Shown here one piece after another: positions 7,040 to 36,000 of a stretch of 64,000 bases of DNA. A program made the position numbers and the translations under genes. This DNA comes from Asterias amurensis (Eukaryota; Echinodermata; Asteroidea; Forcipulatida; Asteriidae): contig NC_092659.1 in assembly GCF_032118995.1 (NCBI RefSeq), forward strand, positions 10,209,177-10,273,176, in the 5' to 3' direction. The first letter of the stretch is position 1, and each line of letters starts with the position of its first letter. The notes under the pieces are model-generated. The model did not search any database, had not been told where the DNA came from, and was given only the letters and a program-made list of their open reading frames with translations.

Positions 7040-7118
7040 ATGAAGCCAATTTATCTAGCATCGCAGCTCTTCTTTATTGCTGTTTGTTTCGCACGGTGTT
7101 GGGTCCTTTCAACAACAG
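7040..7118 (+). CDS. Receptor exon 1: signal peptide
   Basis: ATG at 7040 opens MKPIYLASQLFFIAVCFARC, a short basic start plus hydrophobic core typical of a cleaved signal peptide. The exon ends in phase 1 at the donor AACAACAG/GTAGGG. It joins without a stop to the acceptor TTGTTGCAG at 7743. Confidence 0.7.
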
Positions 7119-10100
7119 GTAGGGTTAGGGTGGATTGTAGTTTATGACAATTAAAATAACTCGATCATGTCTCAAGCAAAAACGAATGAGCAAACATACA
7201 TCCACAGTAGTGGTAATTTTTGTGAAGGGCATATAAGTTAACATTTTGTTCAAGTTGTTCTGTATTTTTAAATAGAAGCCTAAATCTGCTGGAATTATTG
7301 AAGTCTTTATGAGCTGTCGCAATCATTTATATGGCTACGATCTTGAATGGGATAGCCTGCTGCCATGGGCGTAGACATGAGGGGACTCTTTGCCCGACAT
7401 TAGATATAAACAAATTAAAAAACATTATATATCTACTTTCTATTCTAGGGTAAGAAGGTTATTTTGCTTTCTCTGTCCAATTTGGGTTTTCTATTCTTGC
7501 TGTGGTCTGAAGTTTTGTTTTGCCCGAATTTAGTAGGGCTGTCTCCTGCCTATTATGCATGCTGCACAATCTGAACGGGAAGTAGTTTTCACGGTTTTAA
7601 GACGTATAATAATCATCCTTTTCGGAGGGGGGGGGGGTGAATATTTCCTATCTGTTTCTCGTAACCTTTACAACGATTTCGACTTTCAGATAATACACTG
7701 GACTGTTTTTGCAATTAAGTTATTTGATTTGACTTTGTTGCAGCGGACTTCCTGCTTGTGGCAGATTACGGCAATTCGACCATCTACGTAGGGAGTCTTG
7801 TTGGTTTTGATCTTAGCCCTCTACCTCTAAACAACGTTGAAGGCCCGGTTGCTGTTGAGTATGACCCTATTCATAGGATGGTTTACTGGACTGAATCGGA
7901 CAAACCAAGAATCAAACGTGCTAAACTGGATGGGTCTCTGCAACAAACACTGGTGGCCGAAAATCTATCCGGTAAGTTGATTATCTGATGTTTCCATTAT
8001 GGGGCTTCTTGTGCCAGTCACTTCATTGTGGAAGATGCAGATATTTTCATGCGGGCGGGGGGGGCAAGCAAGGAAAACCAGGGACAAAGACATATATCAA
8101 TAGGTCGTTTCAACTTGGTTTCGGGTGGTCCTCCATTGTTTAACCCAAGGGGGGTGTCTGGCGGGCCCAATGCAGTAATGCTCTAAATGTAACATTTATT
8201 TGTTCATGTACTCGAATATTGATACCTTGTTTCTTTAAACCAAAGTGCGCTGGGCTGCCTCTCGGGCAATCTCGGTAGTCTAGTTGGTAAGACACTGCTC
8301 TAGAATTACATGGGTCGTGGGTTCGAATCCCACTCGAGTAATATGCCTGTGATATTTATTTCACACGATTCGGGGAAGTACTGAGTAAACTGGGTTAAAA
8401 CAAAACTAAAATTTAAGAATTGTGTTCCGTTTATGACGTCAATGCAGGTCCCGAAGGTCTAGCCCTTGACCCACAGGAACAGCTGATGTTCTGGACGGAT
8501 ACCAGTCCCAATAATAGGATCGAACGATCATTAACTGATGGATCAGAGAGACGGGTTATTGTATTGCAGGGTGTAACACTTCCCCGTGACATAGTTGCTG
8601 ACAGCCTTGGAAGGTACCGTAATCACAAACATACTTCATTAATAAGAAGCTCGTTGGCCGCAACAAAAAGCTATACGAAGCCACAACTATTATTATTATT
8701 ATTTAACAGACTATGCCCCATTACATGCCCTGTGTACACTGTTGTATTACTCTTAGAGTGCATGTATCTACATTAAAGATACTGGACACTATTGGTAATT
8801 GTCAAAGACCAGTCTTCTCACTTGGTGTATCTCAACATGTGCATAAACAAACCTGTGAAATTTTGAGCTCAATCTGAGGTCTCGAAATCAAATTCGTTGA
8901 AGTTACTTTTTTTCTCGAATACTACGTCATTTCAGAGGGAGCCGTTTCTCACAAAGTTTTATATTATCAACCTCTCCCCATTAATCGTACTCAAGTGAGG
9001 TTTTATGATAATAATTATTTTGAGTAATTACCAATAGTGTCCAGTGCCTTTAAGGTGCTTGTATACGGACAGAAATATATATTTTGTATCGACCATAGCA
9101 CATTTTAAGGTTAACAATGTGCAGCTGCGGCGCATTCAGCAGCCAAGTGCAAGACACACCAGTGTCAAACCCCTTCTTTCGTAGCGAGATACGCCTCTCT
9201 TTTATGCATGACGTCATAATTCTTACCCAAAATTAGGCTATTGGCGCACGTCCCACATCACTAGCAGTGGTTGCGCCCATCGCCTCGTTTTGAGTTAGCA
9301 TTGTGATGTACCTCATGCTTAAATATTAAGAGGGGCGTATTGGGTTCTTTTACGTGCATACACAACACACACATGACCTATATACGACTTTACGTCCCAT
9401 CCGAAGGTCGTGGTTATGTCTTGACTTCGGACGTCAAGTGTCACGACCAGGGCCCAATTTAACAAAACACGTTAAAAGCATTCTTTTTTGCTAAAAGCGT
9501 CCCTCAGCAAAATTTATATTTCCTAAAGCTGCTCACCCGCAGTAAGCACACGAGTGTGACGTAATAATGCCAATCCATGGTGAACGTTCATGCGCGCCTA
9601 GAAATGTTCTGCCTTGATACGTGTATGCTTACGCATTTTTTTCTGCTACAATAAGCACACAAATTTGCTTACGGTTAAAGACACTATAGGTAATTATTTG
9701 CTTAAAACCGTACTTGGTAACGATCTGGGGAGAGGTTGATCGTATAACACATTGTGAGAAACGGCTTCCTCTGGCAGTAACGTAGTTTTCGAGAAAGAAA
9801 AAAAATCCACGAGTTTGATTTTGAGACCTCAGAATTAGATTTTGAGGTCTCGAAATCAAGCAGCTGAAAGCACACAACTTTGTGTGACAAGGGTGTATTT
9901 CTTGTATTATTATCTCGCAACGTTGACGACCAATTGAGCTCAAATTTTCACAGGTTTGTTGTTTTATGCATATGTTGAGATACACAAAGTGATAACAGTG
10001 GTCTTTGACAAATAATACCAAACGTGTCCAGGGGTTGATTTCACAAAGAGTTAGGACTCGTCTTATCTCGAGTTAGGACGAGTAACTCGTCCTAACGTAA

Positions 10101-13100
10101 GATCAATCTTAAGGACTGCATGCTACAGTGTAGGGTTGGGACTCGTCCTAAGTCCTAAGATTAGTCTTAAGTTAGGAAGAGTTTTGTGAAATCGACGGCC
10201 TGGACACCTTTGGTAATTGTCAAAGACCTGTAGGCCTACTCTCACTTGGTGTATCCCAACATATGCATGAAATAACAAATCTGATGAAAGAAAAAAAAAA
10301 ACCTTCTTTATTTTATCTTGCACAATCGACGGCAGTTTCTTTAAACAGCTTTATGGACTTTGGGCCCGGGACTCGAACCCCTCCGCTGGTTAGAAACACC
10401 ATTGCTTTGAGTCCGGTGTTAGGGTTAGGCTGAGGGGAGGTCCCGAGAGTATTCTACCACACATAGTATTATTAATGGTCCAGCATCGTGTTGTATTATT
10501 TATTGCACAGGCATATTTACTGGACTTGCTGGGGAAACAATGCGAAAATCGAACGGGCCGATTACAATGGACGTCATCGAGTTACACTTGTTGAAAATTC
10601 GCTCTGGAAACCAAACGGAATTGCCCTTGACGTCAGAGGTATGGTCGACCTATACTTTAAAATTATACTTAGACTAGAAGTATGGGCGTACAAAACTTGT
10701 TATCAAAAATACCATAATGTAATTTTAAAACTAATTTTTACTCACTTCTTTATAAAAGTTGGTTTGTTTCACTACCGGTCACAATGGGAAGTAAAGTAAG
10801 AAAGCAAATTAACCAAAGAAGAAAATAAGAAAGCAAATTAACCAAATATGTGTCGCCCTGCATGCTACAATACAACTACACTCAGAAATGATGTTTAACA
10901 CACAGGATATTTCAAATGAACTATGAGAATCATTCAATAAGCTGGGTTGCACCCTCCATGGCACAATCATCAATCGAAATCTTCATTTAAAAGTAAGCAT
11001 TAACTGCATAGCGGTTTGCAGTAATCGTGACTACCTTCCTGACTGTTAAAATAGACCGATCGCGCTACCAATGTTTACATGTGATCACGTGATCGACCTG
11101 AGATAGATGGGTATAGAAAAACACAGCTACACAGTAAAGACATTGGAAGACTCGGACCGATGGGCCATAATCGGTTGTATTTTCGATAAATAACCCATGC
11201 ATGTTTAAACAAAGCCCTTTTGTTAAAGTTGAATGTTGTGACTTTGATTTAAATCACATTTTCAGTTTGAAAAATCCAGTATTCTACTTCAAATGAGGTT
11301 TCTTTTGAGAGTATGTTTATAAACTATCCGTTGTTTGAGCAACCTCACGCGCCGTGGGTTTTGCGTTGTGCATGGCTTTAAAGTCGAGCTGTGCCAAGGG
11401 AGACCGCGAAGTTGTCTGACAATAGCTGACAGCTACCCCCTTCTTAACTAACAAAAATCTGGGTAAATTTAAAGGACTTTGCAGCTTTTTCAGGAGATTT
11501 GTACCGAAAATATTGGCAGCAAATTAATCATTGCAATGAGGGCAATGTGAAACTACACTTTCCGTGCACATTACACATGACATCGTGTGAACAGTAGAGT
11601 TTCCTAGTTGGTGAAACTGTTTTTACCCACTGGCATTCTTCAATGATTTCGAGAAAAAGAAAAACCTCGAATGCACAAACAAATGCAACAACTACCATGT
11701 CTTTTTAACACGTTAATAATACAGTACATAGCCTTGCTCAAGGCAGTCGCATTATTCGCTCCGAAAAGACGCCGCTGTAAACCCACCCGTATACCCTGTT
11801 CGTGGTGCGTGCGATCACACCGCATGACCCACCCGTATACACACTGTCAGATCGTACGAATACTGTTCACACAAGTCATCGCACTCGTACCACTAACCGC
11901 ATGCGGAGGCCGTCAGGCCGACAGCCTTGTCGGGTCTGTTTCTTCCAGGTTTAATGTGTTGTGTTGAAAAAATTCCACTAGTGGAAAAAATTGGGGGGGG
12001 GGGGGGCTCTCGGATATGCTAGCAGCTCATGAATATGTATATCGTTCGTCAGACCTATCAGACAACACAGGATGTGAGGCAAATGAATTATTCATTTTGA
12101 CGTCCAATCACGCACGCCTATCATGCTCGCTGAGCGTCCGTGGTGGTGGTGTGTGATGATGTAGACATGTCTCGTCTTTCGCGGGCATTATGGTAATGAA
12201 CTGACCGTGGGAACTCTTCGCTTATTATAGTAATGAGGTCAGTGGCTTCAACACAGACCCTACAAGGCTGTCGGCCTTACGGCCTCCGCATGCGGATAGT
12301 GTACGGGGGCACCGTGTCGTGCGATGTTACGCAGAGTGAATACGGGTGGGTTTTATACAACGGCGGTCTTTTTTTCGGAGTGAATAATTCGACTGCCTTG
12401 AGCAAGGCTATGCAGTACACCGTGTTTGTTGATGTGTAATACCCATCTCAGGTCACGTGATGTTGGTAGCGCAATCGGTCTAATATAATAATTATTATTT
12501 TTATAAGCTGTTACTTTGATCAACAGGGGGGTGTTTGTACTGGTGTGATGCAGGAACCAGAACCTTGGAAGCGGTTGACCTATCTGGTAATGATAGATCG
12601 GTCATTAAAAACATGAGTGAATGGGAAACTCATCCATTCGCTCTAGCCCTCTACGGCTCGTATTTGCTGTGGACAGATTGGAACGCAGCCACCATCTTGA
12701 GAATGAACTTAACTAACAAGATGGTAACAAACGAAGGACCATACATTTTACAGAAGGCGGCTGGTATGCATGTTTATGCAGTCCCAGGTATGTCATTTAT
12801 ATTATCAAAATAATATAGTTCAATTAATTTATCATTGCAAATAAATCATCGTTGAACAAGACCTTCACCATGATCACCAGTTGATATTAAATAAGCGTAG
12901 GACTTTTGGCAGCTGCACGTTCGGTCGCCTGCATTCTGAATGTAGTTGTAAGGTGATTATGGACGGGAATTGACCTAGACTTGAGGCCACTCTCTCTGGC
13001 GTAATTCACGAGCCTTAAAGTGTGACGTCAGATGTTCAGGCTAGGTCTGGTAATCGTCACCTGGGCCCAATTTCATGGCTCTGCTTACCGCCGAATTCTG

Positions 13101-16100
13101 CGCTTACGATCGCGATTCCCCGCTTATACGTGCAAGCGCCGAATTTCTGCGCTAGCCTTGTAAGCATAGAATGCCTAGTAACGTGGTGTACGCAAGCCCA
13201 GAAGCCCAAATTCGCCGCTAACCCATGAAATACGCTTGCCGTAAGCACAGAATTCCCTGCTTCTGTAAGCACCGATTCTGTGCTAAGCAGAGCCATGAAA
13301 TTGGGCCCAGATGATCAATGATCACATTAATTGCCCGTTTGGCGTTCCATACACTACGACGTGTACGCAACCCCCCGCTTGTTTGCGTCTTTTATAAAAA
13401 CAACGATAATTCACGATCACTTGCACTGACAACCTTACAGTGCCCTTAGACACAATAGCTTACATATGCATGTACATAGCACAGTACACTTTCTATAGAT
13501 CGACTTAGACGCACGTTATTATGTCACAGCCTTTATTGTCGGAGGTGAATTGTTCAGCCCTATATACTGCATGCACTCACGTATGACTTTGTAGGTCTAA
13601 ACTGTAGACTCATGTAACCATTGCCTATCGCAAGTTGTTGAACTTTAGCAGAACATTTCAACTGAGTTTTCACCGCTGCTGAAAGATGGACTCCACAGGT
13701 TAGATTTAATCTTGGAAAAGTTTCCGTATGGCGCCACCACTTTTTCATTCGAAATAAAATAATATAGTATCTAATTTACCTGATTGAAATATCCCTTTTT
13801 GTAAAAATGAGTGAAAAAGTGGTGGCGCCATACGGAAAGTTATCCTTAATCTTAATCATGGCTGTATGTATTTGAAGGAATCATGACTGTATGTATTTGA
13901 AGGACTCGTGTGTATGTAGTAATACGTAGAATCGTGATGTTTAAAGTATTGTAACCACAGACATAGAACCTTTATGTCTTTGTAACCTGGGACTCTAAAA
14001 CAAAATGCAGCTTTGGGGGCGGGGCAGAGGGGGAGCCAAAGCCAAAAGGGGTTCACCATTTTATTTATTGGCACAGTGTCCTTTGACGGATTCACAAGAC
14101 CCGAGCACTGACGTTAAATTTCATTTGATTGTCACAACTTTTACAAGTTTCCCACATAGTTTTCCTCCGAAGTTGGCAAATGTTAAAAACAAATTCTACG
14201 ACTCTCTTGTTCTACCTCTGTTTCCCCATAGTTAAGTTAGGTTTCTTGGCTGAGATATAACCCCAACCAATGGCACCGCATGGACTCCTCCAAAGCTGCA
14301 AGGAGGGTAGTTACAGTCTTGGAATGTCAGGGTCACTGAGGTCAAATTTAGTTTGGCGATTTACTCATTCAGTATCATGGAATAAGGACCCCGACCCCAT
14401 GGTATCATCATGGAGCTAATAAAAGGACAAACAAAATCGTTGTTAGTGATTTAAAGTGGTGTAGAAAAAAGCACTGTGTTTTATTTTGATCCTTTTGGCC
14501 TTGAGCTCAAGTGCAATTTTGTATTGACGGATACTTTGCAGTTCGCCCCTGTACGATGAATTTCAAACGTGAACACAGCACTGAATTTTAAACTTTGACT
14601 GGTTCAAAAATGCCTTTTTTATTTACAGACTCATTTATTTTTTATGTCTGATAAAGTCATGTGCTCTATCAAATTGGTATCAAATGAAATGACTATTTAC
14701 ACAATTCTATAGACTTGGGCCCCAAAAGGTACAGTAAGATTTTTGGAGACTCTCTGAAGAATTGAAGTAAAAACAAATACATTGACTGCGCAGTCGACTC
14801 AGGGTCATTTTTAATCTCAGAAGTTCCAATTTCAAAATGTATAGGGGGTTGAGGCAGGGACTTACTTGTTCCACCACTGGCGAAATTGGAAGATTAGTAA
14901 ATCTTAAAAAATATATTCCTCTCTTGCAAAATCGCAATTTAGGTACAATTTATATTTTGTATACGCCCTTTATAATGTCGACTTACTCAGTTAACTCTGC
15001 AGTATTGAATTGAAGTTCATGGTTAAAGGATTTTGGTACTTTATGTAACACAAAACACAATGTCCAAAGATTTGCAATGTCCAAAGATTTACATTAAACT
15101 TACACCGTTTGAAGATAATTAGAAAGCTTCCCTGAAAATATTACTTGCTGAGGTGCTGATTTTTTTAAATGAGTAAAACAATGTCATGAAAATACGTTTT
15201 TACATGCTAAAATGGTTTTCGTCTCATGATCACTGAGACAAAAAATATTGCAATGACAATAATTTACTCATTTCTTAAAAACTACAGCACCTCAGCAAGT
15301 AATAGTTTCAGGGAAGCTTTCTACTGTCATTATCTTCATCAAACTGTGTACCAGTAAGTTTAATGTAAATCTGTGCTTTTTGTCCTACAAAAATGTGCAT
15401 AGACCTTATGTGCAGCTTTGCACTTCAACACTGTCAAACGTTATCGATTATAGTCAAGTGTGCAGGACCGACGGGTTTTCCTGCCCTCCATTTTGCTTAT
15501 CGTTTTCACATAATATTTCAAGTTTACAAACATCAAGGTCGCTGTGTGAAGCAATAGGCCTAGCCCTATACATGTATGGGCATAAAGAAATCGGAAACGG
15601 GATCGACAAATTATGACTTCTGTTAATTCATAAATGAGGTAAATGACGTGTATGTGGCGTTCTTTCTTTTCTCAGGGTCCCTTTAAATGCTACCGTAGGT
15701 TTGTGACTTTCATGATTGAATACCAGTGCCATGCGGTACCAGCCTCGACCAGGTTGTTTTGTTTGGTAGCACGTAGCACCTTTGTGACCCCGGAAATATG
15801 TGCCATACAATAAAATGGTGCTTTTCTCCAGAAGACGATCAGAGCATACTGATCGAAACGTCGAGATGAAACCAACGGTTCTTTTCAGAACCACCCCAAC
15901 TCATTAGAGATAGTCATTACATGGTGTCACCGCAAACTGTCCATGTAATAAAATGGTTGGTTACAAAATCAAGGTGTAAAGCAGAATAAATGTTATAGAG
16001 AACTGTAGATGGGACAGGCTTGTTGATCATTCCTATGTTCCGTGCGTTTAGTTTGTATTTAGGTAATTAAAGGAACACGTTGCCTTAGATCGGACGAGTT

Positions 16101-19100
16101 GGTCAAAACAAAAGCGTTTGTAACCGTTTTTTATAAAATGCATATGGTTGGAAAGATGTTATAAAAGTAGAATACAATGATTCACACAAGTTTGCCTCAA
16201 AATTGCGTGGTTTTCCTTCTACTGTGCGAACTAACATGGTCGGCCTTTTATGGGAGTCAAAATTTTGACCCCCATAAATGGCCGACGTGTTAGTCGACGA
16301 GGTAAAAGGAAAACCACGCAATTTCGAGGCATGTTTGTGTGGATCATTGTATTCTACTTTTACAACATCTTTCTACCCATATGCATTTTATAACAAACGG
16401 TTACAAACGCTTTTCAAAGACCAACTCGACCGATCCAAGGCAACGTGTTCCTTTAATATATTGATTTCCAAGAAATGTTATTTTCAACAAACACTCAAAG
16501 ATACCTGACACACTCAATTACGAAGGAGAGGCATTATCAAACATAACGATTCTCGGAAGTAAATTACTGGAATGATTTCACAATATTTTTAGGATTGTTT
16601 ATACCAAACGTATACCTTTCCCAAACCACCGGGTTGTGTATCGCATGCGATACATGATATAACTTCCCTCACCTTACTGGATTGTGATGCTCAGTTTATC
16701 CCACATGTCGTGGTTATTCATGTGGGACAGCGAAAAATGCAATTCGATGCTCGAAATGCATGTTTCTTTACTCTTCGTTTTGCACTGTCAGCACAGATGC
16801 CCAGTCCCGATCGAACGAAAATGGATTATTCCTTGACCAGGTGGGCTATTAAAATATATTTTGCGTCCGTACGGTTTTTGTGCCTTCCGAATGTAGGCCC
16901 ACAACCAGTTAAATTTTGCCGGTAAACTTTACTTTAAATAAAGGGGAAAAACGTGTTTATGAACTGTGCATTTAGTTATCTATTGTCTGTTTTCCATGTA
17001 GACTCCCATATACTTTGGACTCACTGCCTGGACATTTCTATAGGTAATAACGCCCCCCCCCCCCCAAAAAAAAAAAAAAAAAAAAAAAAAACACCCCGTC
17101 GATGGGAAGTGACCCATTCTTATGAATTCTACGGGGGAACAATAAAAAATACACTTTCAATAAATATTTCTACGATATGTGAAAACACGTACAATTTCGC
17201 ACGTAGGCCCCTACTGGTAGTAATAAATCAAGATCAAATGATTCGTGGGCACTGTATGCACTGACACTGAATATGGTTGTAAGTGTTGTGTTGTGTTGTT
17301 TTGACTCAATTCGGGTCAGATAAGTCATGCTGACTCGGTATGGCATTAATTGGAACATTCTTCCAGTATTGTGACGTGGAACAGAGGGCACAGCGCATTA
17401 CAGACCTGCCAACCTGTACGCATTTTGTGTACCATGCACGCATTTTCACCCTTGAGTACGGTGGTACGAGATATTCTGCAGAACGTACGCAAAAAGCTAA
17501 ATCTATATCGCGGTGTTTTAAAACTGCAGCACGAACGGACAATTTTGTTCTCAATTTAATCAACTGTTATTCGTTCGACCCCAAGTGCAAAAACAACAGA
17601 TCAAAAACACCCCATACACCCCACATTTGAGTGATCATTATGCGCTTCGATAAAAAAGAGGTTGTGCTTAGAACTATTTTTTTAATTCTTACTCCCGCTG
17701 GAAAACTAATAAACCAATGCGTAACAGAAGGGGTGGGAATGGTGCATACCAGTTCGGTCAACCTGGTATAGTACATGTACAGCCTTATGCATGGATGTAC
17801 ATGTACATGTACGTGCACACAACGCACGTGTTCGGCTCGAATTCGTTCGCGTCGCCGTGTGTTTATACTATGCAACATGGACGCCGATCGAAGGCGAAGT
17901 GTCAGTGATGGGGGAAAAAGTACTCCTCCACCCGGAATAAAAAGAATGCATGCTCCGAAGAAGTTTCTTCCTCAACGTGGAAAATAATGCATTTTGCACA
18001 GTGCACGTGTGCAGTCGGCAGTGCACACACTTTGACATTTAGACATCTCAAAGAGCGGCAGCAGTTTAGGTCAGGAGGTAGCATTCATGTTATTATTTAC
18101 GTCACGATTTTTTCCCAACTCCCGAGAATTTGGGGAGAATAATGGGAATTTGATGGCCTGTAATCTTTGTATAAGCCTGATAAGGGAAACAAATGATGAA
18201 TTGAAGCATGCCTGAATTGAAGTGGAACTGGAAAACTCTACGGTGGGCTTTCGTTTGTCCGTTTACCGGGCAACCAAAGATGGATACCAAGTTATAATAT
18301 TTGCATTCCGAGTTTAAGTTACTAATAATGTAGGAACATTGTTCAACAGAGCTTGTCAATGAAATTAATATATGTTATGGATCAGAAATGTGTCAAAATG
18401 GGCTCACCGCCCGTAGGGAAACCCCTGGCAATTTTTTTTTTTGATATAAAAAAAATAAAATAAAACTTTTTGCCCCTTCACTCCTCCTTCAGTTTTAAAT
18501 CCTTGATCTAGGCATTTTGAACATGGTTCCAGCAGTCAACTGGTGATTTCTTTTTCATTTTTTTTTTCAGACTGTTGAGGTCACGAGCACTAAAAGTCAG
18601 AAAAGGCCACATCAACCACCCCTAAAATAACCACTGATATCATGATACAACTTTTTTTTTATGAAGTAGCCTGTATTTTGTGTGAATATGATATATAATT
18701 ACATTAAATGAATGGTTCATCTAAAATGAAGTGGTCCATGGTTTTTGCTGACTGACCGTAAGCATTGTGCCATATGTCGTTGTGCACTGGGCGATCATGT
18801 TTATGCCGCTGCAATAATGTGGTTCTCAAAAAAAAATTACAAGGTTGGCAGGTCTGCATTATATCTTGGCAATGTTCGGTCTTTGTTTAATGGAGGAGGA
18901 GTAACTAAAGAGGAATTTGTGTATCCACATCTAAGTGTGTGAACAATTTCAACATTATTGAGAAATGTCACATTTTCAATCCTTTATTGCAGGCAACGGA
19001 ACATACAACATAGATGAGTATTTTGAGGATACCCACTCGAACACAACGTGGAATTTTCAGCCACAACGCTGGAGATGGAATGTTGCTGTTTCTTTGTGCT

Positions 19101-20965
19101 TGGCAGTCGTTGGTATCGCCGCAAATGTTGCTCTTTTGCTGGTAATTCAGGAAACCCTAAGCCCGGTTCATACTTCCTGTAAATGCTAATTATGCGAAGC
19201 AATTGTTGGCTGCCCTCGCAGCAAATATTCGCAGGGGTTGCCCTAAATGTTCGGCAAACTATTTTGTACGAATTTGTGCCGTAAATCACAATCATTCACA
19301 TTTGCATTCGCAGAAAGTATGAACGCGCTTCAGTAATCTGCCATTGTGCTTCGTCTTCATTATTATTGTCTGACAGTGATCTTGTTAAGATTTAGGTGTT
19401 TGAACTATTTCCCGCCTAGCGAAGACTCATTGAAGTACAAGTGCCTCAGAATAACTCTGGAAACCAGTCCGTGTTGACGTATTCAACAAGGGCTATATGA
19501 AGGTTATTGTTCCTGTGCATTTCCCATTGCCCTGTTTTGATCATTTTATGTAGTGTGTGACGTCACAGTGTTGCTTTGATGGCGCGCAAAGGGCGCTTTT
19601 CGTAGAAATGGAACTTGACATATTGTGATTGTTTGCCGAGCGTGACAGTAATAATCAAAATGCGTGTGTTTTGATTGTTTTTGTTTTTTGTTTTTTACAT
19701 TATGAGAACCATTTTGTTACTCGGTTAGATGTAATCATAACAAGTCCTACTTTACACAACGATAAAACAAGTTAAATTCGTTCGAACTTTGACATTACCG
19801 TATAGGCTACATGTATAATTATAAGGTCAAAATGTAGTTGCATAATAGCCTACTCATCTTGAAATCCAGTGTTGAACCAACAGTTTTAAAAATATTAAGA
19901 GGCTGCACTGTAATCATAATATTTCAAACAAGCCGTGTGGTATAACCCACACTCTCCATGCCACTGTATGGCATTAACGGTGATTGGTAAACGTATTAAG
20001 CTGGGTTGTATAAATTGTGTTCTTGTATTATTATTCTTTAGGTGATTTTGCTGATCCCTCGTTTGCGTACAACCTCCAACATCTTGGTAGTAAACCTCGC
20101 AATCGCAGATATTATGATGTTCGTATTTTCTGTCCCTATGTCAACAATGATGTGGATGTTCGTGAGCTTCCCAGAAGGAACAGCAGGAATAATCATATGT
20201 AAGCTCATGGGTGGAGCTTGGGTATTGAGCCAGGTGTTATGTGCAACATCTTTGACTGCAGTAAGCATAGAGCGTTTTTGTACCTTGAAGTGGCGTATCC
20301 AAATGAAACGCACCGTTGCCATCTTGGTGACGGTCTGGATGGTTGGTCTTTGCTTTACTGTACCTTTGTGGGTATTTGTTACATTAGATGTTTATACTGG
20401 TTCAGATGGTGGGTCTTTGTACTTTTGCCGTCTGCTTCCCCCAAACCGATTGGCCATCGCTGCCTTTTCGACTTCATACACAATATTGACGTACGTCTTG
20501 CCAGTCTTGATTATCATCATTTGCTACGTAGGAATGGCGCAAGTTTTAGTGTGCAGAAAATCGAGTGGTGAATCTGTGGAGGCAATCCGAGCCCGTCGTC
20601 GTCTGGCTGTGGTAGTACTTGTCTTGGCTGTTGCGTTTATTGTTTTCTGGTTTCCCTACCATTTTATAAATATGTTTTTTCTGTATGCTTCTGTGAATAC
20701 TTTGGTATCATTGCCTTTTGAGTTCTACTTACGTCTAATGGAGATAGCCCACGTGCTAATATATGTCAACTCGTGCCTTAATCCATTTGTTGTCTTCCTC
20801 ATCAGTGGCGTTCATCGTAAACCTTTACACGATTTCCTGTGCTGTCGTAAACGTTGTGGTAGGCAGACTGCCACACGTAAAGTTGACGGTCGTTACGCAC
20901 CTGTACCTGACGGCGTATATACTGAGACTGTGTTTAGTACAAACATGGTTGGGGACAGGGAGTGA
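7040..20965 (+). CDS. YWTD beta-propeller fused to rhodopsin-type GPCR (7 exons)
   Basis: Proposed spliced CDS: 7040-7118, 7744-7971, 8448-8613, 10511-10638, 12527-12787, 18993-19141, 20042-20965; 1935 nt, 644 residues. Every junction has AG/GT borders and phases close (1,1,2,1,1,0). Order: signal peptide (residues 1-26), six LDL-receptor class B blades (27-287; motifs YWTE, FWTD, YWTC, YWCD, LWTD), a short linker with two N-glycosylation sites (NGT, NTT), then seven membrane helices (about 318-595) and a cysteine-rich tail. YWTD propellers normally lie in LDLR/LRP-type single-pass receptors and are followed by an EGF module; here the propeller runs into TM1. This suggests a plasma-membrane receptor with a propeller ligand-binding head. 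The weak point is the 6.2-kb intron 12788-18992: the two halves could be neighbouring genes, and an in-frame ATG at 18965 could start the receptor half alone. Confidence 0.68.
7744..7971 (+). CDS. Receptor exon 2: propeller blades 1-2
   Basis: The exon is 228 nt, phase 1 to phase 1. It encodes DFLLVADYGNSTIYVGSL, then EGPVAVEYDPIHRMVYWTES and IKRAKLDGS. This is the standard class B pattern: a hydrophobic strand, YWTD-like motif, I-x-R and L-D-G. Donor GTAAGT at 7972. Confidence 0.9.
8262..8405 (+). mobile_element. tRNA-derived SINE
   Basis: A-box-like TAGTCTAGTTGGTAAGAC and B box GGGTTCGAATCC. The tail GATATTTATTTCACACGATT-CGGGGAAGTACTGAGTAAAC is not a tRNA 3' half. Same family at 22918-23062 (minus) and 45664-45790 (5' truncated). 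In receptor intron 2. Confidence 0.75.
8448..8613 (+). CDS. Receptor exon 3: propeller blade 3
   Basis: Encodes PEGLALDPQEQLMFWTDTS, RIERSLTDGSERR and TLPRDIVADSLGR, a full class B blade. Enters in phase 1 after AATGCAG and leaves in phase 2 at GTACCG. The exon lies just after a tRNA-derived SINE in the preceding intron. Confidence 0.9.
8773..9053 (-). mobile_element. TTAA MITE copy, shortened
   Basis: TTAAAGATACTGGACAC to GTGTCCAGTGCCTTTAA; 281 bp. In receptor intron 3. Confidence 0.8.
9120..9445 (-). mobile_element. SINE body, diverged
   Basis: Shares GGGTTCTTTTACGTGCATAC, ACTTTACGTCCCATCCGAAG and GTCAAGTGTCACGACC with the 51112-51372 copy. Confidence 0.55.
9675..10031 (+). mobile_element. 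TTAA MITE copy
   Basis: TTAAAGACACTATAGGTAAT at left; right end stops at GTGTCCAGG where another foldback (10030-10198) begins. Confidence 0.75.
10030..10198. mobile_element. Foldback (TTGATTTCACAAAGAG family)
   Basis: GGTTGATTTCACAAAGAGTT at left, GAGTTTTGTGAAATCGACGG at right; interior of repeated AGGACGAGT/ACTCGTCCT blocks able to fold back. Confidence 0.7.
10197..10330 (-). mobile_element. TTAA MITE fragment
   Basis: CCTGGACACCTTTGGTAATT then GTCAAAGACCTGTAGGCC; only one end remains. Confidence 0.65.
10511..10638 (+). CDS. Receptor exon 4: propeller blade 4
   Basis: Encodes HIYWTCWGNNAKIERADYNG and WKPNGIALDVRG. Acceptor TTGCACAG ends at 10510; donor GTATGG at 10639; phase 2 in, phase 1 out. 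The YWT-C variant is unusual, since the usual fourth residue is Asp. Confidence 0.9.
11052..12482. mobile_element. 1.4-kb foldback element with nested hAT-like element
   Basis: Ends TAGACCGATCGCGCTACCAA and TTGGTAGCGCAATCGGTCTA; arms pair for about 60 bp (ACGTGA, CCTGAGAT, GGGTA). Contains the 11729-12410 element. In receptor intron 4, ending 44 bp before exon 5. Confidence 0.75.
11729..12410. mobile_element. hAT-like element, complete ends
   Basis: TAGCCTTGCTCAAGGCAGTC at left, GACTGCCTTGAGCAAGGCTA at right, 682 bp. Flanks both contain CAGTAC, consistent with a slightly decayed 8-bp duplication. Interior has GTATAC/ACCCACCC repeats and a G12 run. Related pieces: 24850-25231 and 40526-41190. 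Confidence 0.8.
12527..12787 (+). CDS. Receptor exon 5: propeller blades 5-6
   Basis: The exon is 261 nt, phase 1 to 1. It encodes GGCLYWCDAGTRTLEAVDLS, then SYLLWTDWNAATILRMNL, and ends GMHVYAVPG. In LDLR-type propellers a G-M-x-V-Y segment closes blade 6 and is followed by an EGF module. Here I see no EGF exon downstream; the next phase-compatible exon is the TM1 exon at 18993. Confidence 0.9.
13062..13310. mobile_element. GGGCCC foldback
   Basis: GGGCCCAATTTCATGGCTCT at left and AGAGCCATGAAATTGGGCCC at right, perfect 20-bp inverted ends; interior of GCTTACG/CGTAAGC-like blocks. Confidence 0.85.
13711..13845. mobile_element. Foldback, GGCGCCACCAC family
   Basis: TTTCCGTATGGCGCCACCAC at 13715 and GTGGTGGCGCCATACGGAAA at right; arms of about 33 bp around an AT-rich loop. 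Confidence 0.85.
15023..15395. mobile_element. TTAA foldback, third family
   Basis: TTAAAGGATTTTGGTAC start. Long arms pair: GAAAGCTTCCCTGAAAATAT against ATAGTTTCAGGGAAGCTTTC, and ACTTGCTGAGGTGCTG against CAGCACCTCAGCAAGT. Right terminus decayed. Confidence 0.75.
15820..15955 (+). mobile_element. Penelope-like repeat fragment with histone-type stem-loop
   Basis: Contains GACGATCAGAGCATACTGAT-CGAAACGTCG, a hairpin followed by CGAAACGTC as found at Penelope-like element ends (hammerhead-like; recalled). Then GGTTCTTTTCAGAACC followed by ACC, which fits the histone stem-loop consensus, and ACATGGTGTCACCGCAAACT. Confidence 0.45.
16067..16456. mobile_element. TTAA foldback, near-perfect 390-bp palindrome
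   Basis: TTAAAGGAACACGTTGCCTT ... AAGGCAACGTGTTCCTTTAA with matching arms throughout; centre at CAAAATTTTG (16259). Confidence 0.9.
17051..17091. repeat. C14/A26 homopolymer pair
   Basis: Runs of C then A directly joined. Length is unlikely to be exact in the assembly. Similar runs: A16 near 1201, C17 near 1903, G12 near 11991, G11 near 40766. Confidence 0.8.
17401..18856. mobile_element. DNA transposon, 1.46 kb, non-autonomous
   Basis: Ends CAGACCTGCCAACC and GGTTGGCAGGTCTG with CATTA directly on both sides (5-bp duplication). Contains a short open stretch at 17874-17987 (MDADRRRSVSDGGKSTPPPG and IKRMHAPKKFLPQRGK) that may be the N-terminus of a lost transposase-type protein. In receptor intron 5. 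Confidence 0.65.
18993..19141 (+). CDS. Receptor exon 6: linker and first half of TM1
   Basis: Acceptor ATTTTCAATCCTTTATTGCAG ends at 18992. Entry in phase 1 matches exon 5; exit in phase 0 matches exon 7. Encodes GNGTYNIDEYFED, HSNTTWNF and then the start of TM1, VAVSLCLAVVGIAANVALLL, which carries the conserved TM1 Asn. An ATG at 18965 lies in frame upstream (MSHFQSFIA), so this exon could instead be a first exon; that reading would give no signal peptide. Confidence 0.8.
19158..19325. mobile_element. Foldback, GGTTCATACTTCCTG family
   Basis: AAGCCCGGTTCATACTTCCT at left and CGCAGAAAGTATGAACGCGC at right. Related diverged copies near 23240-23370 and 56806-57000, and a single end at 37838. 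In receptor intron 6, just after the exon 6 donor. Confidence 0.65.
20042..20965 (+). CDS. Receptor exon 7: TM1-TM7 and C-terminal tail
   Basis: The exon is 924 nt including the stop, preceded by TTATTCTTTAG. It starts VILLIPRLRTTSNILVVNLA and completes TM1. Class A landmarks: LAIAD in TM2 (Asp at residue 360), Cys 390 before TM3 and Cys 466 in the second outer loop, ERF (414-416) for DRY, Trp in TM4 (VTVWMVG), Pro and Tyr in TM5, FWFPYHF (539-545) for CWxP, and NSCLNPFVVF in TM7, where the NPxxY Tyr is Val. The tail has CCRKRC, a likely palmitoylation site. Overall it resembles invertebrate neuropeptide receptors of the galanin/allatostatin/TRH-receptor type; I cannot place it more closely. 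All of TM2-TM7 lies in one exon. Confidence 0.92.
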   Translation: MILLIPRLRTTSNILVVNLAIADIMMFVFSVPMSTMMWMFVSFPEGTAGIIICKLMGGAWVLSQVLCATSLTAVSIERFCTLKWRIQMKRTVAILVTVWMVGLCFTVPLWVFVTLDVYTGSDGGSLYFCRLLPPNRLAIAAFSTSYTILTYVLPVLIIIICYVGMAQVLVCRKSSGESVEAIRARRRLAVVVLVLAVAFIVFWFPYHFINMFFLYASVNTLVSLPFEFYLRLMEIAHVLIYVNSCLNPFVVFLISGVHRKPLHDFLCCRKRCGRQTATRKVDGRYAPVPDGVYTETVFSTNMVGDRE

Positions 20966-22917: not shown

Positions 22918-23062
22918 TGTGTGTTAGCACTGTATACTCAGTATTTTCCCGAGTCATGTGAAAAAATATCACAGGCATGTTACTCGGGTGGGATTCGAAC
23001 CCACGACCCTTGCAATTCTAGAGCAGTGTCTTACCAACTAGACTACCGAGGTTGCCCAGCAG
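22918..23062 (-). mobile_element. tRNA-derived SINE, best preserved copy
   Basis: On the minus strand: TCGGTAGTCTAGTTGGTAAG, GGGTTCGAATCCCACCC, then GATATTTTTTCACATGACTC and TGAGTATACAGTGCTAACAC. Confidence 0.75.
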
Positions 23063-26430: not shown

Positions 26431-26654
26431 AAAGTTCAGCTTTACACCGTTTGATTGTGAAGAAAAAAAATACATCATCATCATGACCTCTCATAGAAAG
26501 GGTAAAAGGGTGCTAAATATAACATAGAAAAGGAGCAGGGCGATATATTTTCTACGAATTGAGAAAAAAAAAATTATCACGAATTTGTTGTGTGTATTGC
26601 GTAATTTACATGTTATTTACAGACAAAGTTAAATCTCTTTTTTGATAATGAGGT

Positions 26655-26670
26655 GGCTCTGAAAAGAGCC
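26655..26670 (-). terminator. H2A histone 3' stem-loop
   Basis: On the minus strand this reads GGCTCTTTTCAGAGCC, then ACC: a 6-bp stem with a TTTC loop, the canonical binding site for stem-loop binding protein. A purine-rich downstream element (CAAAAAAGAGATTT) lies at plus 26631-26644, where U7 snRNP would guide cleavage. Confidence 0.95.
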
Positions 26671-26699
26671 GGTTTGTTTTAGAGCTGATTATTCAGCGC

Positions 26700-27077
26700 T
26701 TATTTGGCAGCCTTGGCGGTCTTCTTGGGCAGGAGAACAGCCTGGATGTTGGGCAGTACACCTCCCTGGGCGATGGTGACTCCACTGAGAAGCTTGTTCA
26801 ACTCTTCGTCGTTGCGGATGGCGAGTTGCAAGTGACGGGGGTTGATTCTTGTCTTCTTGTTGTCACGGGCGGCGTTACCGGCCAACTCGAGGATCTCAGC
26901 GGCCAAGTACTCCATAACGGCAGCCAAGTAGACTGGGGCACCAGCTCCCACTCTCTGGGCATAGTTTCCCTTGCGAAGGAAACGGTGGACACGGCCCACG
27001 GGGAACTGAAGCCCAGCTCTTGCAGATCGGCTCTTTGCCTTGGCTCGTGCCTTTCCTCCTTTACCACGTCCAGACAT
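26700..27077 (-). CDS. H2A: Histone H2A, replication-dependent type
   Basis: An intact 125-residue core histone H2A, intronless. It begins [20 protein letters not shown] and contains [20 protein letters not shown], the acidic-patch region [20 protein letters not shown] and the docking segment [20 protein letters not shown]. There is no SQE/D-phi tail, so it is not H2A.X, and it lacks H2A.Z-specific residues. It pairs with H2B in the nucleosome dimer. It shares a 453-bp promoter with the divergent H2B gene; its TATA box is 61 bp from the ATG and a histone stem-loop follows the stop by 29 bp. This is canonical S-phase histone architecture without polyadenylation. Confidence 0.98.
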
Positions 27078-27530
27078 GTTGTTATTTCGTGCAGGTTAAC
27101 AAACTAGAACGAATGCTAATTTTAACCGCCATCCCCGTATTTATAGGTTTTTTAGGGATCCAAGCACTGGCCAATAGCGGAGCGCCATTCTATTAACCCG
27201 CCCTTTCATTGTTCACATTGTGCATATAGATACTACACAACTGTACACAGTATACACGTCCGTACCACCATACCACCGGCCCTCGACCACATGGGGGACA
27301 TGTGTGTGCATTAGTTAGCGGTACTGTTATTTGCACACGGCACTGCCATCTGTCTCGCGAGGGCCAAATCAACAACCAATCACGTTGCACAGAAATAGGG
27401 GGAATATTACGCGGTCGTTTTGGAAAATTCAGTGTGGGATCCCTCATTTGCATATCAGAAACGTATATAAACCCTGCATTTGAGTGGGTTTTTCATTCTG
27501 CAAATTTTTGCCGTAAACAACTGCTTCATC
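27078..27530. promoter_or_regulatory. Bidirectional H2A/H2B promoter
   Basis: 453 bp between the two ATGs. H2A side: TATAAATA on the minus strand (plus 27138-27145) and an inverted CCAAT (GGCCAATAGCGG) near 27170. H2B side: TATATAA at 27464-27470, octamer ATTTGCAT at 27446-27453 (the classic H2B promoter element) and ACCAATCACG at 27375. Both TATA boxes lie 61 bp from their ATGs. The segment 27355-27440 has a diverged second copy at about 25915-26005. Confidence 0.85.
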
Positions 27531-27899
27531 ATGCCTCCTAAGCCAAGTGGAAAGGGACAGAAGAAGGCCGGTAAGGCCAAGGGTGCTCCCCGTACCGACA
27601 AGAAGAGACGCAGAAAGAGAAAGGAGAGCTATGGAATCTACATCTACAAGGTGATGAAGCAAGTGCACCCAGACACCGGCATCTCCAGCCGTGCCATGAG
27701 CATCATGAACAGCTTCGTCAACGACATCTTCGAGCGTATTGCCGCCGAGGCTTCCCGCCTGGCCCACTACAACAAGAAGTCCACCATCACCAGCCGTGAA
27801 GTCCAGACCGCAGTCCGACTCCTTCTGCCCGGTGAGCTGGCCAAGCACGCTGTCAGCGAGGGAACCAAGGCTGTCACCAAGTACACCACCTCCAAATAG
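27531..27899 (+). CDS. H2B: Histone H2B, replication-dependent, starfish-type N-terminus
   Basis: An intact 122-residue H2B, intronless. The start at 27531 gives [18 protein letters not shown]; an in-frame ATG at 27480 lies just downstream of the TATA box and would add 17 unrelated residues, so I reject it. The core reads [20 protein letters not shown] and [20 protein letters not shown], ending AVTKYTTSK. The Pro-Pro-Lys-Pro start is characteristic of starfish H2B, known for N-terminal proline methylation (recalled). TATA at 27464, octamer at 27446 and CCAAT at 27376 lie upstream. The 3' stem-loop starts 31 bp after the stop. Confidence 0.98.
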
Positions 27900-27929
27900 A
27901 CAGTGTATTTGTACGCCTCAAAACCAACC

Positions 27930-27945
27930 GGCTCTTTTCAGAGCC
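27930..27945 (+). terminator. H2B histone 3' stem-loop
   Basis: GGCTCTTTTCAGAGCC followed by ACCACAAC, identical in stem and loop to the H2A copy. A purine-rich tract (AAAAAAAGAGATCA) about 10 bp further is the likely U7 target. Confidence 0.95.
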
Positions 27946-27969
27946 ACCACAACTAAAAAAAGAGATCAT

Positions 27970-29097
27970 ACCTTGTTCTGTCAATTTGTTCTATATTTTA
28001 AATGATAGGCCTAAATAAAACACTCCAAAGTTTATTTTTCATTGGGGCTATATTTTATTATAAATTCACTAGAATTGGTCTATTTTATTACGCTCAAATT
28101 AAAGTTTGAGTTATTCAATGAATAGGCCAGCCTCGCCTACGTCCTTAACTGCTTTGTTATTATTACTTCCGCTTATTTTAAGATCGCTGGAACTTTTATT
28201 TTGTCCCCAGACAAAAATCCTCGCTCAAAATAATGTAAAATGTTAAATTGTCCCGCCTTTTTTCTATCTAGAAATTACATACGCCTTTTATTCTACACTC
28301 CCTCCGGCCCTCTTGAACACTCGGTGTAAAGAGGCCGGGTGATGATTAGGAAAACGTCCCGCGCAATCCAAGGCGTGGTGGTCAATAGAAAGAAAACAAA
28401 AATGCTGAAATTCTCGGATCCCTGAAAAACGAGCATGTCACCTGGCGCTAAGTTCGTTTCCGCTTTTTGCCCTTGGGTAAAATCTGGGGGTTCCGAAATT
28501 TCGTTAATAAGGCCTGAAAATTACCATACCGTGCCTTCAAAACAAGGGAGTTGAAAATGAGTTGTTGTCACTCCCCTCTCGATCATAGACATGTTGGTAA
28601 ACAAATTGCACAGACGGCCGAATGTTTACAAAACGAAATTCAACCTTTTCTACTGCAACTCGGTGTCATTTGAATACACTACCTCCCATGATAGGTTGTT
28701 TTCAATAGTTCAACACTATTTTTAAATATTGTTACGAACAGTTCGACACTATTTTTAAATATTGTTACGAACTTTACCTGTCTGTATTTTCTTACTTTTC
28801 ATTCATATTATCATAGAGGATGGGCTCTCGATTAAAACAAAATCGAGGAAGTGTCGTCCACGTTAAATGAGAACAGCGCCCCCTTGAGACGGGCGGCAGT
28901 ACAATCGAGCGGTTGTTTTAGTTATTTCAATGTGTGTGTGTGTGTGTGTGTGTGATAGATGCATACATTGTACACTACATGGCCGGACTAGTATTTTGAC
29001 AACTTAAGAACATCAATATCAACATGCATGACATGAGTTCTATTTTGAACTATTTTTGAGGATTGAGACCCGAGTTTAGCACATGTTTTCTTTAGAG
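27970..29097. other. Between H2B and CEP63
   Basis: About 1.1 kb. Contains a direct repeat of TTCGACACTATTTTTAAATA near 28710-28770, the TG microsatellite and presumably the CEP63 promoter (no TATA seen). Confidence 0.4.
28931..28952. repeat. (TG)n microsatellite
   Basis: Eleven TG units about 145 bp upstream of the CEP63 start codon. Confidence 0.9.
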
Positions 29098-33000: not shown

Positions 33001-36000
33001 GCAAAGTTTCAAATCCTACTTATTGTGAGAAATGTAGTTTTCAAGTAAAAAAGACATTTTTCACAAATTTGATTTCAAGACCTCAAAATTAACTTTTGAG
33101 GTCTTCAAAATCAAGCATCTGAAAGCACACAACTTTGTGTTTTTTTCTTTCATTATTTTCTTGACAACAATTGAGCTCAAATTTTCACAGGTTTGTTTTA
33201 TGTTTATGTTGAGATACACCAAGTGAGAAGACTGGTCTTTGACAATTACCAATAGTGTCCAGTGTCTTTAAATACAATACTAGAAAAAGCCCCGGGTTTG
33301 AGGTTGAAATTAAGTAGGGGGGGGGGGGGCCAGTGCTTAGTTTATTGATTTTTATACAATCCTATGCAATAAACAATAGGGTACAGGGAAACAGTATTTC
33401 TGTCAACGACCACCGGGGCTCGGGTTGCACACTTGTTCGCATTCGTCTGTGCCAATTTTGTGGTCTGATGAATGTTTGAAGATGAAAACAGATTGTCTTC
33501 CAAAGACGAGATCTGAGATTCGATCTTTGACCAAAGTAAGGAAAGTGTTCATGTATTGTATGTTTTTACTTCTGTGTTCGTCTAGCCTGTTTCACTCCAC
33601 TGCAGGAGGAAAGCCTCTTCACCAATTCTCCATCTCACTCTATCCTGAGCTGCCTGTTGCCAAGCAATTATGCCCCTGTATGTACTTAGTCCATTTCTCA
33701 ATCTTCTGTTTTGTCGCCCTCCTTTTCTTGTCCAGTTTCTCGGAGTCCAGTTGGTTGTTTTGCATGTCCACCTGTTGTCATGCCTCCTTGCTAGGTGGCC
33801 TCCCCATCTCCACTTCTTTGATTTGATCGTCTTGATAATATCCTGCACTCTTGATTATGTGATACCACTTATAATAGGGTTGATGGTTTCATTTACATGT
33901 TGCAGGTTGGACGCTTACGGCACCAATTAGATAGCAGTAAGGAAGATCAGAGATTACTCACATCTCAGTATGAGCAGAAACTTGCACAACTAGGAACTCA
34001 GGTACATATTGTTAGTATAGGATAGATGTGGCATCCATCAAAGAAGTATCAAACAATGCACTTGGTTGCATAAGAACTTAGATACTTTACCCTTTTCCTT
34101 TACAGGTGGGGGGGGGGGGCTCCAAGGTCAGGTTATATTTTGTGATACCTAATAATAATAATAATAATAGTGCCCTGGTCATTGGGCCAATAACAATCCT
34201 TTAATCTTACTCAGCTCCCTAGAGAGTATACAGCCGGTGCTGCAAGTTAGCGCGCTCCAAAGCTAATGAATAATTGGTTCTGCACGTTTCCATGTTCTTA
34301 TATTTTGCTCATGAAAAGTATGTCACACATGGCGTTACTGCAAAGCGAAAAAGTACGTCACACATGGTGTTACTACAAAGCAAAAAAGTACGTCACACAT
34401 GGCGTTACTACGAAGTGAAAAAGTATGTCACACGGTGTTACTGCAAAGCGAAAAAAGTATGTCACACATGGCGTTACTACAAAGAGAAAAAGTATGTCAC
34501 ACATGGCGTTACTACAAAGCGAAAAAGTATGTCACACATGGTGTTACTGCAAAGCAAAACAGTATGTCACGCATGGTGTTACCTCAAAGTGAAAAAGTAT
34601 GTCACACATGGTGTTACTGCAAAGCAAACAGTATGTCACACATGGTGTTACTGCAAAGCAAACAATATGTCACACATATGGTGTTACTGCAAAGCCAAAA
34701 ATGGTTACCTGAATACTGATTGTCTCAACACCAATCAACCAATCAATCTTGCACCGTATCCCGCAGGACGTTGGCTCCATGAATTTTCTTTCTCCACTCT
34801 TGCCTATCTTGCGCTCTTCGATGTTCCAGGTAGAAGGTGCTGTTTTTTCCAGTTACTGTTCAAGTAGGATGTATTTTGGTAGTCTGTTGTTTTTCATTCT
34901 CACTATGTGGCCAAACCAGGAAAGTTGGATCTTGTAGCATGCTCTCTACATTTTCACAAGACGCTGTTCCAGATGGAAGATAAACATTTAGGGCGTGTGT
35001 GTTATGTCTGTAAAGATGAAATATCTATTTTATCTTTAGCTGAGTAGTTTACAACAAGACTATGAGAGAGTTCAAAGACATCATAGTAAGCAGGCTGTAG
35101 GAGCAGAGAAGGAGAAGAGTCAAGTGACTGCTCAATTTCAAGATACCCTGGATGAACTCAAGAAAGCACAACTAGCAATCCAGGTATATATTCCACAAGG
35201 AAAGGTAGTCATAAAGGCAGTGGACACTATTGGTAATTACTCAAAATAACTATTAGCATAAAACCTCACTTGGTAACAAGCAATGGAAAGCTGTTGATAG
35301 CATAAAACATTGTGATGAATGGCTCCCTCTGAAGTTACATAGTTTTCAAGAAAGAAGTAATTTTCCACGAATTTGATTTCGAGACCTCAGAAATAGATTT
35401 TGAGGTCCAAAAATCAAGCATCTAGAAGCACACAACTTTGTGTGACAAGGGTGTTATTATTATCTTGCCACTTCAACGACCAATTGAGTACAAACTTTCA
35501 TAGGTTTGCTATTTTGTGCCATGTATGTTGAGATACACAAGTGAGAAGACTGGTCTTTGACAATTACCAATCTTAGACACTGGACACTATTGGTAATTGT
35601 CAAAGAAGACACTGAACACTATTGGTAATTGTCAAAGACCAGTCTTCTCACTTGGTGTATCTCAACATAATGCATAAAATAACAAACCTGTGAAAATTTG
35701 AGCTCAATCGGTCATCGAAGTGGCGAGATAATAATAAAAGAAAAACACCCTTGTCACACAAAGTTGTGTGCTTTCAGATGCTTGATTTCAAGACCTCAAG
35801 TTCTAAATCTGAGGTCTCGAAATCAAATTCGTGGAAAATTACTTCTTTCTCGAAAAATACTCCACTTCAGAGGGAGTCATTTTTCATAATGTGCTATACT
35901 ACCAACCTATCCCCATTACTCATTACCAAGTAAGGTTTTATGCTAATAGTTATTTTGAGTAATTACCAATAGTGTCTAGTGCCTTTAAACCATGTTCCCA

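Follow-up and report, generated by a model that had tools for sequence, protein, structure and literature searches.

A predicted class A G protein-coupled receptor with an EGF-less YWTD propeller as its ectodomain in Asterias amurensis

LDLR, LRP5/6 and nidogen use YWTD propellers for binding, and none of these proteins is a seven-helix receptor; LRP4, LRP6, LDLR and nidogen are single-pass or secreted proteins in which EGF modules follow the propeller. Among class A G protein-coupled receptors (GPCRs), the LGR and relaxin receptors (RXFP1/2, FSHR, TSHR) have a large folded head, made of leucine-rich repeats, and a hinge, which in the LGR receptors gates the helix bundle. The latrophilins carry an olfactomedin beta-propeller head on an adhesion GPCR with a GAIN domain. 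In the parts of the published reports drawn upon here, Ciona is described as having 14 LDLRR-GPCRs, which are class A GPCRs that bear LDL class A modules and have no leucine-rich repeats (PMC2396169), a survey of amphioxus GPCRs places LDLa on adhesion GPCRs (PMC2246102), and a survey of choanoflagellate GPCRs gives leucine-rich repeats and LDLa for rhodopsins, the words 'propeller' and 'YWTD' being absent from that portion of its text (PMC12716839). A region of Sevenless/ROS1 that includes a YWTD propeller binds the ectodomain of the GPCR BOSS, according to the portion of the report used (PMC11743138). The main texts of GPCR papers on a sea cucumber (PMC7042368) and on the crown-of-thorns starfish (PMC5442662) contain no words beginning with LDL, low-density or propeller. 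Among the papers listed in searches of the open-access literature, judged largely by titles and abstract openings, none was seen to describe a YWTD propeller on a class A GPCR, and automatic annotation of such an architecture may exist in animal protein databases.

Seven exons on the + strand between positions 7040 and 20965, rebuilt from the window (the whole stretch of 64,000 bases of A. amurensis DNA that was analysed), join into a single frame of 644 residues; the joined exons amount to 1,935 bases, or 645 codons, and the sole stop is at the end. The best model of this gene, and a probable one on the sequence evidence, is a class A GPCR whose ectodomain is a YWTD propeller without EGF modules. 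All six introns have GT/AG borders; their phases are 1,1,2,1,1,0 and their lengths 625, 476, 1,897, 1,888, 6,205 and 900 bases, intron 5 being more than three times as long as any other. An earlier sequence-only reading had claimed a seven-exon frame with these phases and no internal stop, and rejoining the exons from the sequence bears this out. The features of the gene are as follows.

7040-7118, + strand: exon 1, with the start codon and a signal-peptide-like hydrophobic stretch; ends in phase 1; reads MKPIYLASQLFFIAVCFARC...
7744-7971, + strand: exon 2, blade 1 and the first part of blade 2; Ldl_recept_b, 23.6 bits
8448-8613, + strand: exon 3, the remainder of blade 2 and blade 3; Ldl_recept_b, 26.0 bits
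10511-10638, + strand: exon 4, blade 4; Ldl_recept_b, 43.1 bits
12527-12787, + strand: exon 5, blades 5 and 6; ends in phase 1; Ldl_recept_b, 25.6 bits
12788-18992, + strand: intron 5, 6,205 bases, with rival acceptors, of which the strongest are at 18571, 15676 and 18493
18993-19141, + strand: exon 6, an acidic, tyrosine-bearing linker, two N-glycosylation sequons and the first half of TM1
20042-20965 (stop included), + strand: exon 7, the second half of TM1, TM2 to TM7, the cytoplasmic tail and the stop; 7tm_1

The joined chain matches the Pfam family Ldl_recept_b at 106.3 bits (E 1e-30) in four significant stretches, and in scans of single exons, trimmed to whole codons, exons 2 to 5 each exceed by themselves the cut-off of 21 bits. 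Domain matches of individual exons at these scores are far beyond chance. Six YWTD-like anchors (in order FLLVADY, MVYWTES, LMFWTDT, HIYWTCW, CLYWCDA and YLLWTDW) start at residues 29, 72, 115, 159, 203 and 246, spaced by 43, 43, 44, 44 and 43 residues, and exon 5 ends 42 residues past the start of the last anchor, a regularity that predicts a closed propeller of six blades. The spacing upholds the earlier count of exactly six blades; Pfam by itself labels just four stretches as class B repeats, and the assignment of blades 1 and 6 depends on the repeat period. When the propeller was compared with solved structures, 60 distinct sequences matched at 0.001 or below, the natural ones mostly LRP2, LRP4, LRP6, nidogen, LRP8, LDLR and VLDLR, with E values of 1.8e-39 for LRP4 (3v64), 3.3e-39 for nidogen (1npe), 1.7e-38 for LRP6 (3soq) and 1.6e-30 for LDLR (1ijq); lower ranks were taken by designed Pizza propellers, two serine/threonine kinase entries and one tyrosine kinase receptor. 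A match to the SGL (SMP-30) family above the Pfam cut-off (35.5 versus 26.3) was taken as a propeller cross-match, and joined-chain matches to Vgb_lyase, Srsx, DUF5050 and NHL fell below their Pfam cut-offs and were not counted. Neither EGF nor LDL class A modules were found by Pfam in the joined chain or in any of the 22 open reading frames scanned in intron 5. A tblastn search of the 64,000-base window with both halves of the gene found no second propeller or receptor, returning the gene itself, blade-to-blade cross-matches and, elsewhere, only matches with E values of at least 1.1. No relatives of exons 5 and 7 were found in viral and prokaryote contigs, in line with an origin in an animal; this result is uninformative on other animals.

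The second half of the chain has the features of a class A receptor. The joined chain matches the Pfam family 7tm_1 at 5.2e-33 over profile positions 2-259 of 260, and exon 7 alone does so at 2.5e-32 (112.8 bits versus a cut-off of 30.5). Against solved structures, 457 sequences pass 0.001 with the seven-helix (7TM) part, the best relatives being the neuromedin-B receptor (8.3e-26), somatostatin receptor 2 and the apelin receptor; these best matches suggest a class A receptor of the peptide-receptor kind. Intron 6 interrupts TM1, leaving one half in exon 6 and the other in exon 7; as the neuromedin-B receptor alignment extends through this junction, the two exons belong together. By the class A motif list and residue numbering, the 7TM part has N1.50, LxxxD2.50, C3.25 with the ECL2 cysteine, W4.50, P5.50 and FxxxWxP, and the DRY motif is replaced by E-R-F. 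The NPxxY motif of TM7 reads NPFVV, a departure from the canonical class A activation switch, and for this reason normal signalling is not assured and the claim of ordinary G-protein signalling is lowered. Two matches below cut-off, of exon 6 alone to an arterivirus glycoprotein (0.02) and of exon 7 alone to a DUF (0.09), were taken as chance. Structure prediction of exon 7 alone without an alignment gave a mean pLDDT of 50.7 and a pTM of 0.33, a model too poor to use.

The predicted receptor resembles each of the systems introduced above in one respect and differs from it in another. It has the propeller family of LRP4, LRP6, LDLR and nidogen, but the propeller that is followed by EGF modules in those proteins is here followed directly by the 7TM part, and membership of the LDL receptor family (LDLR/LRP) was rejected since Pfam finds neither EGF nor LDL class A modules. 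With the LGR and relaxin receptors it has in common a large head on a class A helix bundle, whereas their head consists of leucine-rich repeats and that of this gene is a propeller; membership of the LGR/RXFP group was rejected as Pfam finds neither leucine-rich repeats nor LDL class A modules in the ectodomain. The Ciona LDLRR-GPCRs and the snail receptor GRL101, so far as the sources used describe them, likewise combine a class A 7TM part with an ectodomain of the LDL receptor family, but theirs has cysteine-rich class A modules and their 7TM part is relaxin-receptor-like, whereas the ectodomain here is a class B propeller. Here, by contrast, the best 60 of the 457 structure matches of the 7TM part include neither LGR nor relaxin receptors. 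The latrophilins also have a beta-propeller on a 7TM part, although both the family of their propeller and their 7TM class differ and no such Pfam match occurs here; the joined chain has no Pfam match to a GAIN domain and its 7TM part matches 7tm_1, with Srsx below cut-off, on which grounds membership of the adhesion GPCRs was rejected. In the pairing of Sevenless/ROS1 with BOSS, as the portion of that report used presents it, propeller and GPCR belong to separate proteins on separate cells and BOSS is class C-like, whereas here a single chain would unite a propeller with a class A receptor.

The splice from exon 5 to exon 6 over the 6,205-base intron carries the joining of the two halves, and it is predicted rather than observed. 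The propeller-GPCR architecture proposed by the sequence-only reading is well supported by frame, phases, both domain families, splice scores and blade spacing, and the join between exons 5 and 6 remains at the level of prediction; the rejoined exons directly show the frame and the phases, as well as which two domain families occur and in what order. Splice sites were scored with generic metazoan matrices, which were not trained on A. amurensis, and were ranked among the 8,086 GTs and 7,181 AGs on both strands of the window. The donor of exon 5 is in the top 0.35% of GTs and that of exon 1 in the top 0.23%; the acceptor of exon 6 (18993; 7.22 bits) is in the top 0.19% of AGs and matches exon 5 in phase. 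The weakest splice sites of the gene are those of exon 3 (acceptor 5.85%, donor 7.05%). The exon 6 acceptor ranks third of the 297 acceptors in 12850-19100, behind 18571 (9.02) and 15676 (8.17) and in a near tie with 18493 (7.21). Among the seven acceptors in this region scoring at least 4, it gives the longest in-phase continuation, the next longest being 44 residues (from 16792). Since three of the six acceptors of the gene itself score below 4, the weakest at 1.59, weaker acceptors in intron 5 also count, and at a bar of 1.59 there are 16 acceptors including 18993, hence 15 others in intron 5, two of which, at 17002 and 17044, have longer in-phase continuations than 18993.

The rival reading that survives best, although we consider it unlikely, is that of two neighbouring genes, one encoding a secreted EGF-less propeller that ends within intron 5 and the other an ordinary class A GPCR whose coding sequence begins with the ATG at 18965, which is in frame with exon 6, or in an upstream exon of its own. 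The exceptional length of intron 5 favours such a division, as do the strong acceptors at 15676, 18493 and 18571, through which exon 5 would receive short tails of 3, 4 and 2 residues (GSL, VLNP and DC, respectively, each followed by a stop). An AATAAA at 15809 lies 133 bases past the acceptor at 15676, but it is weak evidence because AATAAA or ATTAAA occurs 19 times in intron 5; read-through past the exon 5 donor would reach a stop at 12811-12813, with an AATAAA at 12840. Longer tails of 87 and 73 residues, of low complexity and without a Pfam match in their frame, would be given by the weaker acceptors at 17002 and 17044. Against two genes, no domain was found for the tails: 0 of 22 + strand open reading frames of at least 50 amino acids in intron 5 reach a Pfam cut-off (24 were listed, from which those of exons 5 and 6 were removed); five matches below cut-off (0.014 to 0.095) among the 22 were taken as chance. 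Moreover, if exon 6 were a first exon, the presence of an in-phase acceptor of its rank at its start would be a coincidence.

Alternative splicing of one locus is likewise judged improbable as an explanation in its own right, and overlaps with the single receptor that is the best explanation. Under alternative splicing, the locus would produce the full receptor, a secreted propeller in which exon 5 runs on into a short 3' exon, and a headless receptor in which exon 1 is spliced directly to exon 6. Candidate short 3' exons are present in intron 5, and exons 1, 6 and 7 join in frame into 383 residues with a single terminal stop, but skipping in frame follows from the symmetric phases without any need for function. 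An assembly error that placed unrelated exons together is very improbable, as there is no N in the 64,000 bases and both halves are on the same strand, in order and with matching phases.

Two further features of intron 5 were noted. A candidate micro-exon of 42 bases (17002-17043, + strand, phase 1-1) reads DSHILWTHCLDISI and is faintly similar to a YWTD strand; at 3.0 its acceptor is middling, comparable to or stronger than some of those in the gene model, and its use in the gene is unlikely. A match to the histone 3' stem-loop at 15872-15917 on the + strand (35.7 bits versus a cut-off of 34) might have marked a 3' end separating the propeller half from the receptor half, a reading that was set aside, there being no histone match in + strand open reading frames of at least 50 amino acids there; it is perhaps a relic or part of a repeat.

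The single-chain receptor of the preferred model would consist of a signal peptide, a complete EGF-less six-bladed propeller, a linker of about 30 residues and a class A 7TM part of the peptide-receptor kind. The hydropathy peak of exon 1 covers residues 4-22 and is signal-peptide-like by hydropathy only. Six N-glycosylation sequons are found in residues 1-311, a mild excess (shuffle P 0.03), and none in residues 312-644, a non-significant absence (P 0.28). This pattern and the exon 1 stretch fit a propeller outside the cell and an N-out TM1, without proving either. From there, the face of the propeller would most likely capture a protein or peptide ligand. The linker carries an acidic tyrosine stretch, YNIDEYFED, which resembles a sulfation site, and capture of the ligand could move this linker and so gate the helix bundle, by analogy with the hinge of the LGR receptors. 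The ligand may be of the Wnt, lipoprotein or laminin type, as had been suggested along with its wiring to G proteins.

Together, exons 2 to 5 make up a 783-base cassette that is flanked at either end by phase 1 introns and lies between the signal-peptide exon and the TM1 exon. Phase 1 introns flanking a module are the classic mark of shuffled extracellular modules, and the gene may have arisen by exon shuffling. We tentatively propose, with rather less than even confidence, a new architecture in which an LRP-type propeller is fused without an EGF cap to a peptide-type class A GPCR, such that one chain would couple an LRP-style ligand to G proteins, and in which the phase 1 symmetry would also allow splice forms of the same locus that give a headless receptor and a secreted head. 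If true, a natural fusion of a propeller with a class A GPCR would be a case of exon shuffling creating a new receptor type in one step, and would offer a ready system for studying the gating of a class A helix bundle by a large folded head.

Several other features of the window were noted. A tandem-like array at 34274-34867 (+ strand) has repeated KYVTHGVT or VCHTW units in two frames, the longer of which has no Pfam match. Long open reading frames resembling coiled-coil exons are present at 38137-38544 and 52380-52778 (+ strand), the former with a weak CEP63-like match (0.0002; 21.7 bits versus a cut-off of 33). Intron 3 of the receptor gene contains a dispersed repeat (8765-9055 and 9680-10031) with many further copies on both strands across the window among the matches listed. 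A tRNA-Ser (AGA) gene is located at 22979-23052 on the - strand, and intron 2 of the receptor gene contains an Rfam tRNA match at 8269-8341 on the + strand that ARAGORN does not report. The region of this match and that of the tRNA-Ser gene agree at 89% over about 139 bases, and the match in intron 2 may therefore be a tRNA-derived repeat. A divergent histone H2A/H2B-like pair was identified by Pfam at 26703-27095 (- strand) and 27471-27896 (+ strand), followed by histone 3' stem-loops at 26630-26675 (- strand) and 27925-27970 (+ strand), respectively.
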